The notes under the pieces: generated by a model
What the model saw: only the letters and a program-made list of their open reading frames with translations
The model's database searches: none
Told to the model about the DNA's origin: nothing
In this document: positions 12,557-18,040 of the stretch, one piece after another
Layout: the number at the start of each line of letters is the position of its first letter
How positions within the stretch are numbered: position 1 is the stretch's first letter
DNA from: Candidatus Aminicenantota bacterium
GTDB lineage: Bacteria; Acidobacteriota; Aminicenantia; S016-38
Assembly: GCA_026991555.1 (NCBI GenBank)
Contig: JALXBI010000115.1
Location: forward strand, 1 to 34,385
Direction: 5' to 3'
Length of the DNA: 34,385 nucleotides
Program-made: the position numbers and the translations under genes

Positions 12557-14320
12557 TTATGCCTCCATCTGCGTTCTATAAAGTTTGGAATAAAAGCCTC
12601 CGAGTTTAAGAAGCTCCTCATGAGTACCCTCTTCCACTATTTTACCGTCGTGAAGAACCAGAATTCTGTGGGCCATTTTCACCGTGGAAAGCCGATGGGC
12701 AATTATTATGGTGGTCCTTCCCTTTACGATTTTCCAGAGGGCTTCCTGGATTTTCCTTTCCGAATCCGCATCCAGGGAGGATGTTGCCTCGTCAAGAATC
12801 AGTATTCTGGGGTCCTTAACGATGGCCCTGGCAATGGAAAGTCGCTGTCTCTGGCCCAGGGAAAAATTAAAACCCTTCTCGTCCAGAACCGTGTGATAGC
12901 CCCGGGGAAGTTCGTTTATGAACTCGTGAACATGGGCCACCTCAGCGGCCCTGAGTATTTTTTCCATGGGGAGAGCACCTGAACCATAAGCTATGTTTTC
13001 CGCCACGGTTTCGTTAAATAGGAGAATGTCCTGGGTAACCACCCCTATCCGGGTTCTTAGCCATTTCAGGTCGTAGCGGCTCACCTCCACCCCATCTATG
13101 AGAACCTTACCCTTCTGGGGTTCGTAAAATCCAAGAATTAGTTGGGTAATAGTAGTTTTCCCCACCCCCGAAGAGCCCACCAGGGCCACGGTTTCCCCTG
13201 GAGAAATGAGAAAGTTTACTCCCCTTAAAACCTCCCTTTTTCCATCATAGGAGAAATGGACATCGCAAAATTCAATCTCTCCCCTCAATTTTTCAGGCCT
13301 GTATGTTCCTCCTAAGGTCCTGTATTTTCTGGCTTCTTTCATTATCTCCTCTATCCTTTCCAGGGCAGCCCCTCCTTCCTGAAGGAGATTGTTGGCCCCG
13401 GAAAGCCTTCTTATGGGGGTGTACATGTAGAATACCGAAGCGATAAAGGTGGTAAACTGGCCCGGGGTCATTATTCCCTGCCGGATGAGGCGGGCGCTTA
13501 TGTAAATCAGGACTGCTGCCACGAATCCGCCCACGAATTCTATAAAGGGGGAAGATAAGGTCCAGACCTTGACGAATTTAATGTTGTCCCTGAAATTCCT
13601 TTCGTTCACCTTCCTGAATTTTTCCTCCTCGTAATCCTCTGCAGCGAAGGTCTTTACTATGCGTATGTTTGAAAGAACCTCGGTAATTCTCCTGGATATT
13701 TCCCCCACGGACCTCTGCCTTCTTTCCCCCAGGGTTTTTACCTTTTTGCCAAAAATCACTACCGGAACTGCTGCCAGGGGAAGAATGGCTAAGGCTATGA
13801 GAAAGAAGCCGGGGTTGTTCACTATTATGACCACCATCAGGGCAAAGACCGTGAGGGATTCCCTTATCATTCTGATTACCCCATCAGAAAGGCTCCTTTC
13901 AAGAACATCCACCTCGTAGAAAAACTTGGACGAGATGCTGCCGCTGTGCATTCTGTCGTGGAAGGGCAGGGGAGAACGAAGGAGCAGGGAGAAGAATTCT
14001 TCCCTGAGTTCTTTTATTATTCTCTGGGCCAGGGCTCTCATGCTGTAATTGGAAAGGAAAGTGAAGAGAGCTTTTCCGAGAAATACTACCAGGACCAGCA
14101 GGGGAATAACCACGGGATTGGAAAGGTCTAAGAATTTGTGGAGGAATTTTCCAAACTTAAAGCCAGCAGCGGATTTATTGTAACTCTGAAAAAGGTCGTC
14201 CATTATGGGCTGAAGTATAAGGGCCGCCAGGGCGGTAAAACCCGCTGCCAGGGCAGAGTAAACCAGGGCTAAGGCAAGCCTCCAGCGATGAGGTTTGAGC
14301 AGTCTGAAGAGCTTATTCAT
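12557..14320 (-). CDS. msbA: MsbA-like lipid A/phospholipid ABC exporter
   Basis: Half-size ABC exporter, 587 residues, expected to flip lipid A core or phospholipid across the inner membrane. The N-terminal half has six transmembrane helices (residues about 15-300). The ATPase half has Walker A GSSGVGKTT near residue 380, the signature as FSLGQRQRLS (one residue off the usual LSGGQ) and Walker B ILILDEATSSLD near 505, followed by the switch histidine in IIIAHRLST. It overlaps the preceding gene by eight bases. Its place among phosphatidylethanolamine synthesis genes fits an envelope lipid role. Substrate assignment is by family and context; a generic multidrug exporter is possible. Confidence 0.85.
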   Translation of the reverse strand: MNKLFRLLKPHRWRLALALVYSALAAGFTALAALILQPIMDDLFQSYNKSAAGFKFGKFLHKFLDLSNPVVIPLLVLVVFLGKALFTFLSNYSMRALAQRIIKELREEFFSLLLRSPLPFHDRMHSGSISSKFFYEVDVLERSLSDGVIRMIRESLTVFALMVVIIVNNPGFFLIALAILPLAAVPVVIFGKKVKTLGERRQRSVGEISRRITEVLSNIRIVKTFAAEDYEEEKFRKVNERNFRDNIKFVKVWTLSSPFIEFVGGFVAAVLIYISARLIRQGIMTPGQFTTFIASVFYMYTPIRRLSGANNLLQEGGAALERIEEIMKEARKYRTLGGTYRPEKLRGEIEFCDVHFSYDGKREVLRGVNFLISPGETVALVGSSGVGKTTITQLILGFYEPQKGKVLIDGVEVSRYDLKWLRTRIGVVTQDILLFNETVAENIAYGSGALPMEKILRAAEVAHVHEFINELPRGYHTVLDEKGFNFSLGQRQRLSIARAIVKDPRILILDEATSSLDADSERKIQEALWKIVKGRTTIIIAHRLSTVKMAHRILVLHDGKIVEEGTHEELLKLGGFYSKLYRTQMEA

Positions 14321-15260
14321 CCCTAAGAGCCCTGAAACCTATGGATATTGCGTTGAAGGCCGGTTTTTTCAGGTTATCAAAAACCGTCCATAGCCACAAG
14401 TTTCCCCCGTTTCCCTTCCTTATTTCCCCGGCATATACGAAGAATCCCTCTTCATCTTCAATTTTGGCCGGGGAGAAGGGCTTTTTTTCAAGAAGCACCG
14501 AGGGGTTATCCTCGAGGGCTTCTTCAAAGGCCTTTATGGAAGGGGTTCCTTTGGAAAATCTGAGGTTTATGAGGACAGAATAACGATGAAAAACCCCTGT
14601 CCTCAAAATTATGGCTTCGGATTTTATCCCCAGCAATTTTTCTATGTGCCTGGAGATTTTAAGTTCCTCTTTGGTAAAGCGTCCCTTCCCTCTCTTTCCC
14701 CTTTTGGGAAAAAGGTCAAAGGCCAGGATGTCCCCCAATTTTTTTTGAGGGACATCTTCCATGTTTAAAACGGAAATGGCCTGGGAAAACAGCTCATCCA
14801 TGGCCTCTTCCCCCAAGGAGGATACGGGTTCGAATACTATAAACGATGCTGCGGAGGGCTTCCAGGGCAGGGAGGAAAGCAGGGTGGCAATGCCTACAGC
14901 TGCAGGATGGGGATTTGCAAACCTTTTTTCGCGAATCCTCTCGGTTATACCCTCAAGGTAAACCGGAAGTTCTTCTCTCGTTCCGCTTAGATCCACGGAT
15001 ATACCAGGAGCTTCAAATAATTCGTTCTCCACCCTGACAGTAAAAAAGACCAGGTCCCTCCTCTCCAGTTCCTCCTTTCTGGGCTGGGTAACCACCCTGG
15101 CCTCGCCCCTGAAGGAGTCAATAAGGGCGTATTCCTTAACCCCGGGTTCGTAGAGGTATGCATCTTTTATCGGAAATTTAGACCTTTCCAGAACTTCCTT
15201 CAGGGTCTTTCCAAATATGCTCCTTACCCCTACTATAGCTATCTTAGGCTCCGAGGCCAT
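14313..15260 (-). CDS. Aspartate-semialdehyde dehydrogenase-like protein (USG-1 type), probably non-catalytic
   Basis: 315 residues related to the Asd/ArgC family. The NADP-binding start IAIVGVRSIFGKTLKEVLE is present. At the position of the catalytic cysteine motif (ANPxC) the sequence is ANPHPAAVG (115-123), so the nucleophile is missing. A dimerisation-type C-terminal half (PVSSLGEEAMDELFSQ onward) remains. This matches USG-1-like paralogues, whose role is unknown. ATG at 15260 is preferred to an upstream start at 15329: GGAG lies seven bases before it, homology begins there, and the ATG overlaps the pssA end. It lies between pssA and msbA, which suggests a link to envelope lipids or simply operon membership. 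Confidence 0.75.
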   Translation of the reverse strand: MASEPKIAIVGVRSIFGKTLKEVLERSKFPIKDAYLYEPGVKEYALIDSFRGEARVVTQPRKEELERRDLVFFTVRVENELFEAPGISVDLSGTREELPVYLEGITERIREKRFANPHPAAVGIATLLSSLPWKPSAASFIVFEPVSSLGEEAMDELFSQAISVLNMEDVPQKKLGDILAFDLFPKRGKRGKGRFTKEELKISRHIEKLLGIKSEAIILRTGVFHRYSVLINLRFSKGTPSIKAFEEALEDNPSVLLEKKPFSPAKIEDEEGFFVYAGEIRKGNGGNLWLWTVFDNLKKPAFNAISIGFRALRDE

Positions 15261-16026
15261 CCTCTTGCTCCACCGGTTTTTTCTTTTTAAGCAACAGAAT
15301 AATCCCCCTGACAGGTCCTGAGAGCACATAAAGAGTGGTTAGGAAGAAAATCACATACCGGGGCCAGGCTGCAAGGGCTGAGAGAACCAGGGCAAAAAAC
15401 AAAACCGTAAGATAATGTTCCCTGCTTTTAAGATTAATGTCTTTGAAACTGCGATACTTCACCTTTGAGACCATCAGGAAGGGCAATGTGAATATGACTC
15501 CTGCCAGCAAAGGGATGAATACAGGAGACGAGGGCGGGGTTTTAAAAAATAGCACGGTGGATACCGGAACCATGGAGGCCGAGGGAATGGGGAGCCCTTC
15601 AAAATAATACCTGGCGCTTATACCCCGGGCAGCAAGAACATTATAACGGGAAAGCCTCAGGGCCCCTCCCACGAGATACACGAAGGCTATAAGGGAACCT
15701 ACCTTGGGTAGGTCCTTAAGGGCCCAAAGGTAAATCAGAATAGCAGGAGCAACTCCGAAGGATATTATGTCTGCCAGCGAATCCAGTTCCCTCCCTATGG
15801 GTGATGAAATTTTAAGGGCTCTGGCGAGCCTTCCATCCAGAAGGTCCATTATGGCAGCGAAAATCACCAGGACCGCGGCCAGGTCAAATTTTCCCTTGAT
15901 GGAAAAGTTTAAGGATAGAAATCCTAAGTAAAGGTTAGTCACGGTAAGGAGGGAGGGGGCGAAATATACGAGGTTTAAATTCTTCCTGGGGTTGTTTTTC
16001 CTCTTATTTTTCCTTCTAATTCTCAT
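15244..16026 (-). CDS. pssA: CDP-diacylglycerol-serine O-phosphatidyltransferase
   Basis: Makes phosphatidylserine from CDP-diacylglycerol and serine in the inner membrane, 260 residues. The CDP-alcohol phosphotransferase signature DG-x2-AR-x8-G-x3-D-x3-D is complete in the stretch beginning DGRLARALK, with GRELDSLAD ending it. About seven hydrophobic segments surround it, and a basic N-terminal tail (RIRRKNKRKNNPRKN) precedes the first. ATG at 16026 is chosen because AGGAGG lies four bases upstream; the open frame extends to 16047. The start lies inside the end of psd, whose product acts on the next step. The serine assignment rests on this pairing and the overall length. Confidence 0.92.
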   Translation of the reverse strand: MRIRRKNKRKNNPRKNLNLVYFAPSLLTVTNLYLGFLSLNFSIKGKFDLAAVLVIFAAIMDLLDGRLARALKISSPIGRELDSLADIISFGVAPAILIYLWALKDLPKVGSLIAFVYLVGGALRLSRYNVLAARGISARYYFEGLPIPSASMVPVSTVLFFKTPPSSPVFIPLLAGVIFTLPFLMVSKVKYRSFKDINLKSREHYLTVLFFALVLSALAAWPRYVIFFLTTLYVLSGPVRGIILLLKKKKPVEQEDGLGA

Positions 16027-16621
16027 ATTTCCTCCTGGCCAAAACACTAAGTCCTGCCTTCACCTTTTCCCCGTCGGCCACTGATGGCTGGAACTGCTTC
16101 GGGAAGTATAGGTCGGCCCTGGAGCCCAGCAAGATTATACCTATTCTTTCCCCCATCTGCACCCTGTCCCCGGGCTTCTTGTAAGGTTTTATTCTTCGGG
16201 CCAATATTCCTGCAATGAGCACCAGTTTTATTTTCCACGGGGAACAACCTAAGAGAAATATTACCTTTTCGTTTTCCTCAGATTCCCTTTTATAAGCAGG
16301 AAGGTGTCCTCCCCCACGATGTTCCATTTCCAGAATTTCCCCGGCGCAGGGAGACCTGTTCACATGGACATCCAAGGGGGACATAAAAATGCTTATTCTC
16401 CATTCATCTCCCATTTTTTCCACGGACATCACCTTTCCATCCGCCGGGGATAGGAGGACTTCCCCTTTCTCCGCGGGTTTTCTCCCGGGGTCCCTGAAAA
16501 AGAAGGCAAGGAGCAGGGCAAAGATAGCAAAAAGGGCAGCGGGCAAAAATAAATGGAGCACAAAAAATCCCAGGGATATTAGAGCCACGGGCAGGACGAA
16601 GTAAAATCCCTCCTTAGCCAA
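16016..16621 (-). CDS. psd: Phosphatidylserine decarboxylase, short proenzyme form
   Basis: Converts phosphatidylserine to phosphatidylethanolamine. The 201 residues match the short form of the enzyme that self-cleaves at a Gly-Ser bond to make the pyruvoyl cofactor; the site is LLGSRADLYFP near residue 170. Two hydrophobic segments at the N-terminus anchor it. FFRDPGR, LSPADGKV and the MSPLDVHVNRSP motif are all present. The start is TTG at 16621, overlapping the previous stop by eight bases, with GGAG eight bases upstream. Adjacent to pssA, it gives a complete two-step phosphatidylethanolamine pathway. Confidence 0.93.
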   Translation of the reverse strand: MAKEGFYFVLPVALISLGFFVLHLFLPAALFAIFALLLAFFFRDPGRKPAEKGEVLLSPADGKVMSVEKMGDEWRISIFMSPLDVHVNRSPCAGEILEMEHRGGGHLPAYKRESEENEKVIFLLGCSPWKIKLVLIAGILARRIKPYKKPGDRVQMGERIGIILLGSRADLYFPKQFQPSVADGEKVKAGLSVLARRKYEN

Positions 16622-16841
16622 TCCTTTTCTCCCTTTCCTTCACCAGAATTTCCTGCATTTTATCTTTAATTTTTAGCTTTAATTTTTTTATTTTCTTTAT
16701 CTCAACTTCCTCCTCTGGACTAAGAGGCCTTCTGGAAAGGAGTTTTTCAAGTTCTTTTTCATATTCCCTGTGTTTTTCGTAAAGTTCCCTGAATTCAGAG
16801 TTTTCCCTTAAGAGGGCTTTCTTGAGTTCGTTTTCCTTCAT
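16614..16841 (-). CDS. DUF465/YdcH-like protein from an internal start within thiE
   Basis: The ATG at 16841 is preceded by AAGGAGGG with three to four bases of spacing, one of the best ribosome binding sites in the window. It opens a 75-residue helical protein, MKENELKKALLRENSEFREL to the frame end, with the DUF465 layout: two helices around RRPLSPEEEVEIKKIKKLKLKIKDKM. Free-standing DUF465 proteins of this size are common. It is in the same frame as thiE, so translation from here would yield the domain alone as well as the fused form. Function of the family is unknown. Confidence 0.6.
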   Translation of the reverse strand: MKENELKKALLRENSEFRELYEKHREYEKELEKLLSRRPLSPEEEVEIKKIKKLKLKIKDKMQEILVKEREKRIG

Positions 16842-17465
16842 TTTCCCTCCTTTTTCCTTGAAACTTAAATAGTATAACATTTTCTCCTTAAAAAATGCTG
16901 CCTCCTCCCCAGGGGCGGGTGCAGAGAATATGGCGGAAGATATAGCTATTAAATCGGGTTCTAAAGAGAGCACCCTGAGGAAGTTTCCGCGGTTAATTCC
17001 ACCTATGACGCATATGGGAATATTTAATAGCCCTTTAGCGGCCTTTATTGTATCGAATTCCACCAGAACATAATCTTCCTTGGTTCGGGTGGGGAAAAGG
17101 GAGCCAAAGGCCACGTAATCCGCCCCTTCCCCTTCCGCTTTCAGTGCCCTTTCAATCTCGTTGTAGCAGGATACCCCTATTATACCCCGGAAATTTTGCC
17201 TTATTTCTTGAAGAGAAGGGTCGTTTTTTCCTATGTGCACTCCATCGGCTCCCAGTTCCTCGGCAATGCCAGGAAAGTCGTTGACTATAAAAACAAAGGG
17301 GAGCTCCCGCCTTAACCTGTTTAGCCTTATCCCCACTTTTTTAAGTTTTTCCTGGTTTTTTATTCTCAGTTGAACCCAGTCTACCCCGCCCTTTAAGCTT
17401 TCCCTGACTCTCTCTACGAATTCATCATCTGGATAATTTCCCGTAGCTATAAGGTAAAGCTTCAC
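16614..17465 (-). CDS. thiE: Thiamine-phosphate synthase fused in frame to a DUF465 helical domain
   Basis: 283 residues. Residues 1-208 are a ThiE TIM barrel joining hydroxymethylpyrimidine diphosphate and thiazole phosphate. Visible motifs are DWVQLRIKN, FIVNDFPGIAEELGADGVHIGKND, IGVSCYNEIERAL, FGSLFPTRTKED and CVIGGINRGN, covering the usual substrate-binding residues. Residues 209-283 are a charged two-helix domain of the DUF465/YdcH type. There is no stop between them; the joint FKEKGGKM is encoded by a Shine-Dalgarno plus ATG. The product may therefore be a fusion, or two proteins may come from one frame. ATG at 17465 overlaps the Rrf2 TGA. No other thiamine genes are nearby. TenI-like function is less likely given the intact motifs. 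Confidence 0.88.
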   Translation of the reverse strand: MKLYLIATGNYPDDEFVERVRESLKGGVDWVQLRIKNQEKLKKVGIRLNRLRRELPFVFIVNDFPGIAEELGADGVHIGKNDPSLQEIRQNFRGIIGVSCYNEIERALKAEGEGADYVAFGSLFPTRTKEDYVLVEFDTIKAAKGLLNIPICVIGGINRGNFLRVLSLEPDLIAISSAIFSAPAPGEEAAFFKEKMLYYLSFKEKGGKMKENELKKALLRENSEFRELYEKHREYEKELEKLLSRRPLSPEEEVEIKKIKKLKLKIKDKMQEILVKEREKRIG

Positions 17466-17848
17466 TTTATGTCAAGGGTAAGTTTCGTGAAAAATTCCTT
17501 TGTTAAACGGTAATATTCGTTCCAATATTTTCTTACCAAACACTCATTGTAAGTAGGACAATTTTCTGGGTTTTTCCCCAGACATGGAACCGGAGAGATT
17601 CCCTCCCCCACCGCCTCCATAACATCATACCAGGAAATCTTTCCCTTAGGCCTTGCCAGCACATATCCTCCCCTGGCACCCCTTTTCCCCCTGACCAGTC
17701 CGGCTCTTTTGAGCTTGAGAAAAACCTGTTCTAAAAATCTTTCGGGTATTCTTTCCTTCTGAGAGATTTCCCTTAAGGACTTAGGCTGGTCCTCGCTGAG
17801 GTGAAGTAAAGCCCTTATGGCATATCGGGTATATGTGGTAAACCTCAC
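17462..17848 (-). CDS. Rrf2-family transcriptional regulator with three clustered cysteines
   Basis: 128-residue regulator. It has the Rrf2 winged helix: RFTTYTRYAIRALLHL opening, RIPERFLEQVFLKLKRAGLV recognition region and RGARGGYVLARP wing. Three cysteines follow as C-x7-C-x5-C (PCLGKNPENCPTYNEC), resembling the IscR/NsrR cluster site (usually C-x5..8-C-x5-C). An Fe-S-sensing role is plausible but inferred. The start is GTG at 17848, six bases after a TATAAT box and without a ribosome binding site, so its mRNA is probably leaderless. It heads an eleven-gene operon of phospholipid, cofactor and nucleotide genes and may autoregulate it. Confidence 0.9.
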   Translation of the reverse strand: MRFTTYTRYAIRALLHLSEDQPKSLREISQKERIPERFLEQVFLKLKRAGLVRGKRGARGGYVLARPKGKISWYDVMEAVGEGISPVPCLGKNPENCPTYNECLVRKYWNEYYRLTKEFFTKLTLDIK

Positions 17849-17863: not shown

Positions 17864-17878
17864 AAAAGATAGGAAAAG

Positions 17879-17952
17879 CGCCCCCGACGGGACTTGAACC
17901 CATGCCGCCGCCTTGAAAGGGCGGTGTCCTAACCTGGCTAGACGACGGGGGC
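17879..17952 (-). tRNA. tRNA-Glu (anticodon TTC)
   Basis: Folds as a standard cloverleaf of 74 bases. The acceptor stem GCCCCCG pairs with CGGGGGC, with discriminator G. The anticodon stem is CCGCC/GGCGG with loop CTTTCAA, and the T arm is GGGTTCAAGTCCC. No CCA is encoded. It follows tRNA-Lys by five bases on the same strand. Confidence 0.95.
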
Positions 17953-17957
17953 GCATC

Positions 17958-18030
17958 TGAGCCGTGCGGGATTCGAACCCGCGACTCCCGGCTTAAAAGG
18001 CCGGTGCTCTGCCTGCTGAGCTAACGGCTC
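17958..18030 (-). tRNA. tRNA-Lys (anticodon TTT)
   Basis: 73-base cloverleaf. The acceptor stem GAGCCGT pairs with ACGGCTC, with discriminator A. The D arm is GCTCAGCAGGCAGAGC, the anticodon loop is CTTTTAA on a CGGC/GCCG stem, and the T arm is CGGGTTCGAATCCCG. No CCA is encoded. A promoter lies just upstream. Confidence 0.96.
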
Positions 18031-18040
18031 AAGGCCTCTT

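Follow-up and report, generated by a model that had tools for sequence, protein, structure and literature searches.

Same-frame (phase-0) overlaps, in which two genes share a frame and the downstream one is an internal start of a longer open reading frame, are the closest described systems to the locus studied here. The available text of PMC2542354 counts 187 such cases (0.26%) in its data set, and the portions of PMC3887535 and PMC2542354 at hand set same-frame overlaps aside as alternative starts of one gene. In the N-terminal proteoform pairs mapped by Ribo-RET, according to the available part of PMC11005335, one frame with two starts likewise gives two proteins, as is predicted here; those pairs are isoforms of one gene, however, while the short product at our locus belongs to another family, whose history is independent. 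A further comparison is with ATGA gene pairs that are translationally coupled. This arrangement is found at the joint of one relative (G003), whereas the joint in the window lacks a termination, so that no termination-reinitiation would take place between thiE and DUF465. Moreover, ThiE is one domain of a longer chain in its fusions to thiamine enzymes (bifunctional 3nl2, NCBIfam PRK09517), but DUF465, the partner here, is no thiamine enzyme, and the fusion occurs in only two of the three readable species of one genus. A literature search found no paper on a thiE-DUF fusion and, among the titles listed, none on the function of the DUF465/YdcH family.

On the whole, the present locus appears to belong to the known same-frame overlaps, with two genes on the same strand and in the same frame, a shared stop and separate predicted starts. 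Two features seem unusual compared with the phase-0 cases in the available parts of PMC2542354 and PMC3887535. The frame runs across a conserved promoter-like element as well, and the steps by which the overlap arose can be followed in relatives, where the two genes are either separate or joined by an ATGA overlap. We consider it probable that this is a phase-0 overlap of two separately started genes, of which the fusion is an expected by-product, and that DUF465 would also be made alone. The overlap would be old and probably accidental, not a purpose-built fusion.

The open frame and its two parts

The window is the whole stretch of 34,385 nucleotides analysed here, and its source genome (G000) has 1.9 Mb. 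On the minus strand, which the original prediction did not name, a single open frame of 283 codons (16614..17465) runs from a GTG start at 17465 to a TAA stop at 16616-16614. Our re-reading agrees with the original prediction that the thiE frame is open through a ribosome binding site and the ATG at 16841, that the codons AAA-GGA-GGG-AAA at the joint are read as Lys-Gly-Gly-Lys, and that the codon counts give 283 and 75 residues. The thiE part, a TMP-TENI barrel of residues 1 to about 202, occupies 16860..17465 (minus strand) according to Pfam, the PDB and B. subtilis alignments and the model. The DUF465 gene, assigned by Pfam and found as a separate ORF in G003-G006, occupies 16614..16841 (minus strand) with its own ATG at 16841-16839, 75 codons and the TAA stop. 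Its ribosome binding site AAGGAGGG (16845..16852, minus strand) lies within the fused frame, and AAGGAGGGAAA precedes the ATG at 16841, from which the last 75 of the 283 codons are counted.

Both domain assignments are made from profiles and structures. Pfam TMP-TENI (PF02581) matches residues 3-179 with an E-value of 2.1e-43 and 148.2 bits against a gathering cut-off of 27, and the thiE equivalog of NCBIfam (TIGR00693) scores 142.6 bits, which is 2.5 below its cut-off of 145.1; we therefore describe this part as a TMP-TENI family member, probably ThiE. In addition, it matches the PDB ThiE 1xi3 (E 6.4e-30), and B. subtilis ThiE aligns as far as residue 199 of the fused frame, the substrate-binding motifs Q-x-R-x-K, N-D, DGxHIG and PTxTK being present in this alignment; we take these motifs to have catalytic roles in ThiE. 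Pfam DUF465 (PF04325) matches residues 225-274 (E 4.9e-6, 26.9 bits, cut-off 25), and scores 29.5 bits against the same cut-off on the 75-residue part alone; a relative in the PDB is HP1242 (1zhc, E 2.5e-4). The predicted model of the fusion (mean pLDDT 91.2, pTM 0.72, 10 sequences) contains two separate folds, namely a complete ThiE barrel to residue 204, closed by a helix at 185-204, and an all-helical DUF465 part at 211-282, with a low-confidence joint at 205-208. Since both parts fold separately in the model, the fusion need not harm either of them.

Internal ATGs behind a strong ribosome site are uncommon, though not unique, and arise by chance. Among 733 in-frame internal ATGs of 190 greedily called ORFs in 200 kb of G002, six have AGGAGG at 3-9 nt. 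These six sites lie in five ORFs; in the four ORFs scanned with Pfam, four sites (three ORFs) lie inside ordinary proteins, MnmG and two class-II tRNA synthetases, and one within an ArsA-like match. The ATG at 16841, however, falls exactly where a gene begins that four of the six family loci have as an ORF of its own, and chance does not explain this. By RNA folding, the ribosome site pairs with downstream sequence, not beyond shuffles (z -1.07).

The neighbours on the same strand are closely packed. Upstream of thiE lies an Rrf2-family regulator gene (17462..17848, minus strand), whose TGA overlaps the thiE GTG by 4 nt (GTGA). Downstream, the TTG start of psd (phosphatidylserine decarboxylase-like; 16016..16621, minus strand) overlaps the DUF465 stop by 8 nt, and a pssA-like gene (CDP-alcohol phosphatidyltransferase; 15244..16047, minus strand) is next in the operon. 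The names Rrf2, psd and pssA in the window are putative. The regulator (17462-17848) has three cysteines near its end, arranged as C-x7-C-x5-C, and this end presumably resembles that of the Fe-S sensing members. Further upstream, at about 17870-18035 on the minus strand, two tRNA-like stretches are identical in three congeners, and are the longest runs shared among G000, G002 and G003.

Frames and stops in related genomes

The family sample includes seven genomes, and six of them (G000, G002-G006) hold the locus. All six have the gene order Rrf2-thiE-DUF465-psd-pssA, with psd as the downstream neighbour of DUF465 in each. The seventh, G001, is left out; its contig C80 starts inside psd, and the genome has no thiE or DUF465 match and one match to the Rrf2 query at 34% identity, which is probably a different family member. 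The original prediction had proposed aligning relatives for a stop between the two parts, and such a stop is present in G004, G005 and G006, at 27-38 nt ahead of the DUF465 ATG. In G003, thiE stops after 209 codons with a TGA overlapping the DUF465 ATG (ATGA), so that DUF465 is a separate ORF in four of the six loci (G003-G006). G002, at 68% protein identity to G000, has the same uninterrupted thiE-DUF465 frame, of 284 codons. Relative to DUF465, the thiE frame is in phase in G000, G002 and G005, with one TAA intervening in G005; it is shifted by one in G003 and G006 and by two in G004. The phase of thiE and DUF465 thus appears to drift in the family, which, in these six genomes, argues against selection for the fusion.

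Within the genus, a tree of four proteins gives ((G002,G003)100,G000), with G002 and G003 as sisters at full support, and the leaders of these two differ by one C, located in a short C run. An ancestor like G006 but without its stop would have a thiE frame reaching exactly the ATGA of G003. An ancestor of the genus that was in frame, with one loss in G003, and one that was ATGA-like, with two gains, appear equally parsimonious. When the -10 boxes described below are lined up by eye, a gap of about 9 nt results in the genus, while the MAFFT alignment placed a gap of 7 nt and left these boxes unaligned. The original prediction considered a recent loss of a stop codon; the loss itself is borne out, but it does not seem recent, because it is common to G000, G002 and G003, and among these three species the thiE third codon positions agree at only 36-54%.

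These relatives bear on the alternative that a dual-product gene has been selected, in which the fusion has a function of its own and the internal start supplies free DUF465. Such selection would be in keeping with the in-frame state of two genomes at 68% identity, with the folding of both parts in the model, and with the two in-frame leaders, whose lengths from the -10 hexamer to the ATG (29 and 32 nt, counted by eye) differ by exactly 3 nt, as selection for the fusion would give. Nevertheless, we find it unlikely, as a single base puts G003, the sister of G002, out of frame, the phases in the family look random (three of six in the DUF465 frame, one of those with a stop), and a search of 396 phylum genomes for both parts without a stop between them gives only G000 and G002 among the matches listed. 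The deliberate nested arrangement which the original prediction had entertained is thus not supported, and G002 is the only case of the uninterrupted two-domain architecture beyond G000 among those matches. A genome contig scan returned only distant matches (7 loci), none reaching the DUF465 part, and a viral contig scan for thiE-DUF465 returned no match.

An error of assembly or sequencing, in which a base miscounted within a short run conceals a real stop or an ATGA overlap, is very unlikely. Its support comes from the single C in a short run that separates G002 from G003, and from an A5 run in G000. However, the same state is found in two separately assembled genomes, and a single-base error would change the phase only, since none of the three congeners retains the old thiE stop. 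In particular, the sequencing error in this genome that the original prediction had allowed for appears unlikely, because the congener G002 has the same in-frame read-through at 68% identity.

The promoter-like element before DUF465

The phase-0 overlap of two separately started genes is further considered with respect to the sequence ahead of the DUF465 start, where the original prediction missed a conserved promoter-like element crossed by the thiE frame. A 23-nt block GAAAATGTTATACTATTTAAGTT (16862..16884, minus strand; -43 to -21 from the DUF465 ATG) is identical in G000, G002 and G003, and is the longest identical DNA of the three congeners across the 3.6-kb locus, tRNA genes aside. At the thiE codon-position identities, the expected number of 23-nt runs between G000 and G002 is 0.008-0.015. 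Another identical block of 17 nt, AAAGGAGGGAAAATGAA, lies over the ribosome site and start codon, and two further identical runs of 19 nt are found elsewhere in the locus. The 23-nt block contains TGTTATACT (16871..16879, minus strand), a predicted extended -10 element for the DUF465-psd-pssA operon, assigned by its conservation and located inside the thiE frame, where the -10 box is translated as Met-Leu-Tyr-Tyr. Its TG stands 38 nt before the DUF465 ATG.

Over the family, a TGn directly before a TATAAT-like hexamer is present in five of six loci at a conserved distance from the gene, and G004 has no exact match to the -10 pattern. The element, which is TGATATACT in G005 and G006 and TGATATATACT in G004, stands at or after the thiE stop in these relatives, and after it in G004 and G006; the conservation is therefore at the level of DNA and not of coding. 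None of the six family loci has a correctly spaced -35 TTGA. In promoters of the extended -10 type, a TTGACA-like -35 hexamer is dispensable. The consensus promoter scanner reported no promoter at the site of the element, and in the window alone the -10 pattern is not above chance, occurring 4 times where 2.75 occurrences are expected. The 23-nt block may instead be a site of a different type. The conserved start signal of DUF465 consists of the predicted extended -10 box together with the ribosome site. A true and complete fusion, with the 283-residue protein as the sole product and the internal ATG as a relic, would suit the one uninterrupted frame, but it is scarcely credible given how few runs of at least 17 nt outside the tRNAs are identical in the genus. 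The -10 block and the ribosome site plus ATG both belong to these runs, although the thiE third positions are only 36-54% identical.

Across the class, we compare 64 DUF465 loci, six of this family (f1) and 58 of nine other families, made up of 18 of the 20 regions of one set, 40 further regions and the six family loci. Left out are L048, whose genome is also in L091, L050, which is a thiE region, and the second match in G004. Overall, 46 of the 64 loci have TGNTATNCT in the 75 nt ahead of the DUF465 ATG; the loci are drawn from the matches listed and include close relatives, the counts being not independent. In 200 dinucleotide shuffles, the number of loci with the pattern averages 0.18 and never exceeds 2. 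Every locus of f3, f4, f7, f8, f9 and f10 has the pattern, as do five of six of f1, and it is absent from f2 (5 loci), f5 (11) and f6 (1). A correctly spaced TTGA -35 is found in 42 of the 64, none of them in f1. Across the class, the operons headed by DUF465 (window 14313-16841, minus strand; L040-L099) often stand behind TTGAAA and TGnTATnCT.

The downstream genes are psd-pssA in f1, f2 and f6, pssA in f5, and mostly asd in f3, f4 and f7-f10, where three loci have a match to msbA and none to asd; in two loci (G007, G026) none of the queried neighbours is found. The recurrent association of DUF465 with phospholipid-synthesis and asd genes may be a clue to its role. A ThiE match near DUF465 is found in none of the 58 loci outside f1, for 40 of which about 0.4 kb upstream is covered. 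Taken together, DUF465 normally stands at the head of an operon and has a promoter-like signal of its own; thiE would have arrived in front of it in f1.

Several other loci deserve mention. In f5 (L084, which is G014, with the DUF465 ATG at 418; L051; L099), another upstream gene reaches up to or over the DUF465 start with its 3' end. This is an overlap at DUF465 distinct from the one with thiE; it is out of frame in at least one genome (G014), and the -10 box is absent. A weak second DUF465-like match (L106, G004:C43:23840-24025; 36%, E 9.3e-4) lies inside an open frame of 383 codons. One contig, G098:C51, was considered as a second thiE-DUF465 neighbourhood (residues 106-279) and rejected; inspection by eye shows a gene other than thiE upstream, no ThiE match was found, and the initial match was an over-extended alignment. 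Likewise rejected are the long open frames around DUF465 in G045 and G055, which have MsbA downstream and no ThiE.

Proposed origin, products and meaning

From the frames, the synteny, the conserved element and the drifting phase, all of which are observed directly, we propose the following course for the same-frame overlap with two starts. DUF465 would be the first gene of an older operon DUF465-psd-pssA, which starts with an extended -10 box, a short leader, a strong ribosome site and the ATG at 16841. The Rrf2-thiE pair would have come to sit directly upstream of DUF465 in the family, and the thiE stop would have been lost in the ancestor of the genus, before the genus split, with the thiE frame then continuing through the -10 box and the ribosome site. 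Small changes in leader length would since decide whether thiE ends at ATGA (G003) or stays open (G000, G002). In the window, the Rrf2-thiE transcript would give the 283-residue ThiE-DUF465 protein; a second transcript may begin just downstream of the -10 box and supply free DUF465 with Psd and PssA, and ribosomes starting at 16841 would make the free 75-residue DUF465 from either transcript. The original prediction's expectation of two products is thus supported, as far as predicted start signals go. We infer the promoter activity and both protein products from these signals, and the fusion would be tolerated rather than selected.

It is improbable, in our estimate, that the genus instead has a selected gene within a gene, with two promoters and two starts, fused and free DUF465, and a frame switchable between fused and ATGA by one-base changes of the leader. 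If true, a ThiE-DUF465 protein would tie thiamine synthesis to the partners of DUF465. For annotation, the locus indicates that gene callers can hide a gene, since the frame in G000 and G002 is expected to give a single call of 283 or 284 residues, missing the free DUF465 start and its predicted promoter. Worked phase-0 examples are useful because such cases are set aside in the available parts of PMC3887535 and PMC2542354. For this family, the six genomes provide a comparative case of how a same-frame overlap may originate, with separate genes, loss of the stop, ATGA overlap and read-through.
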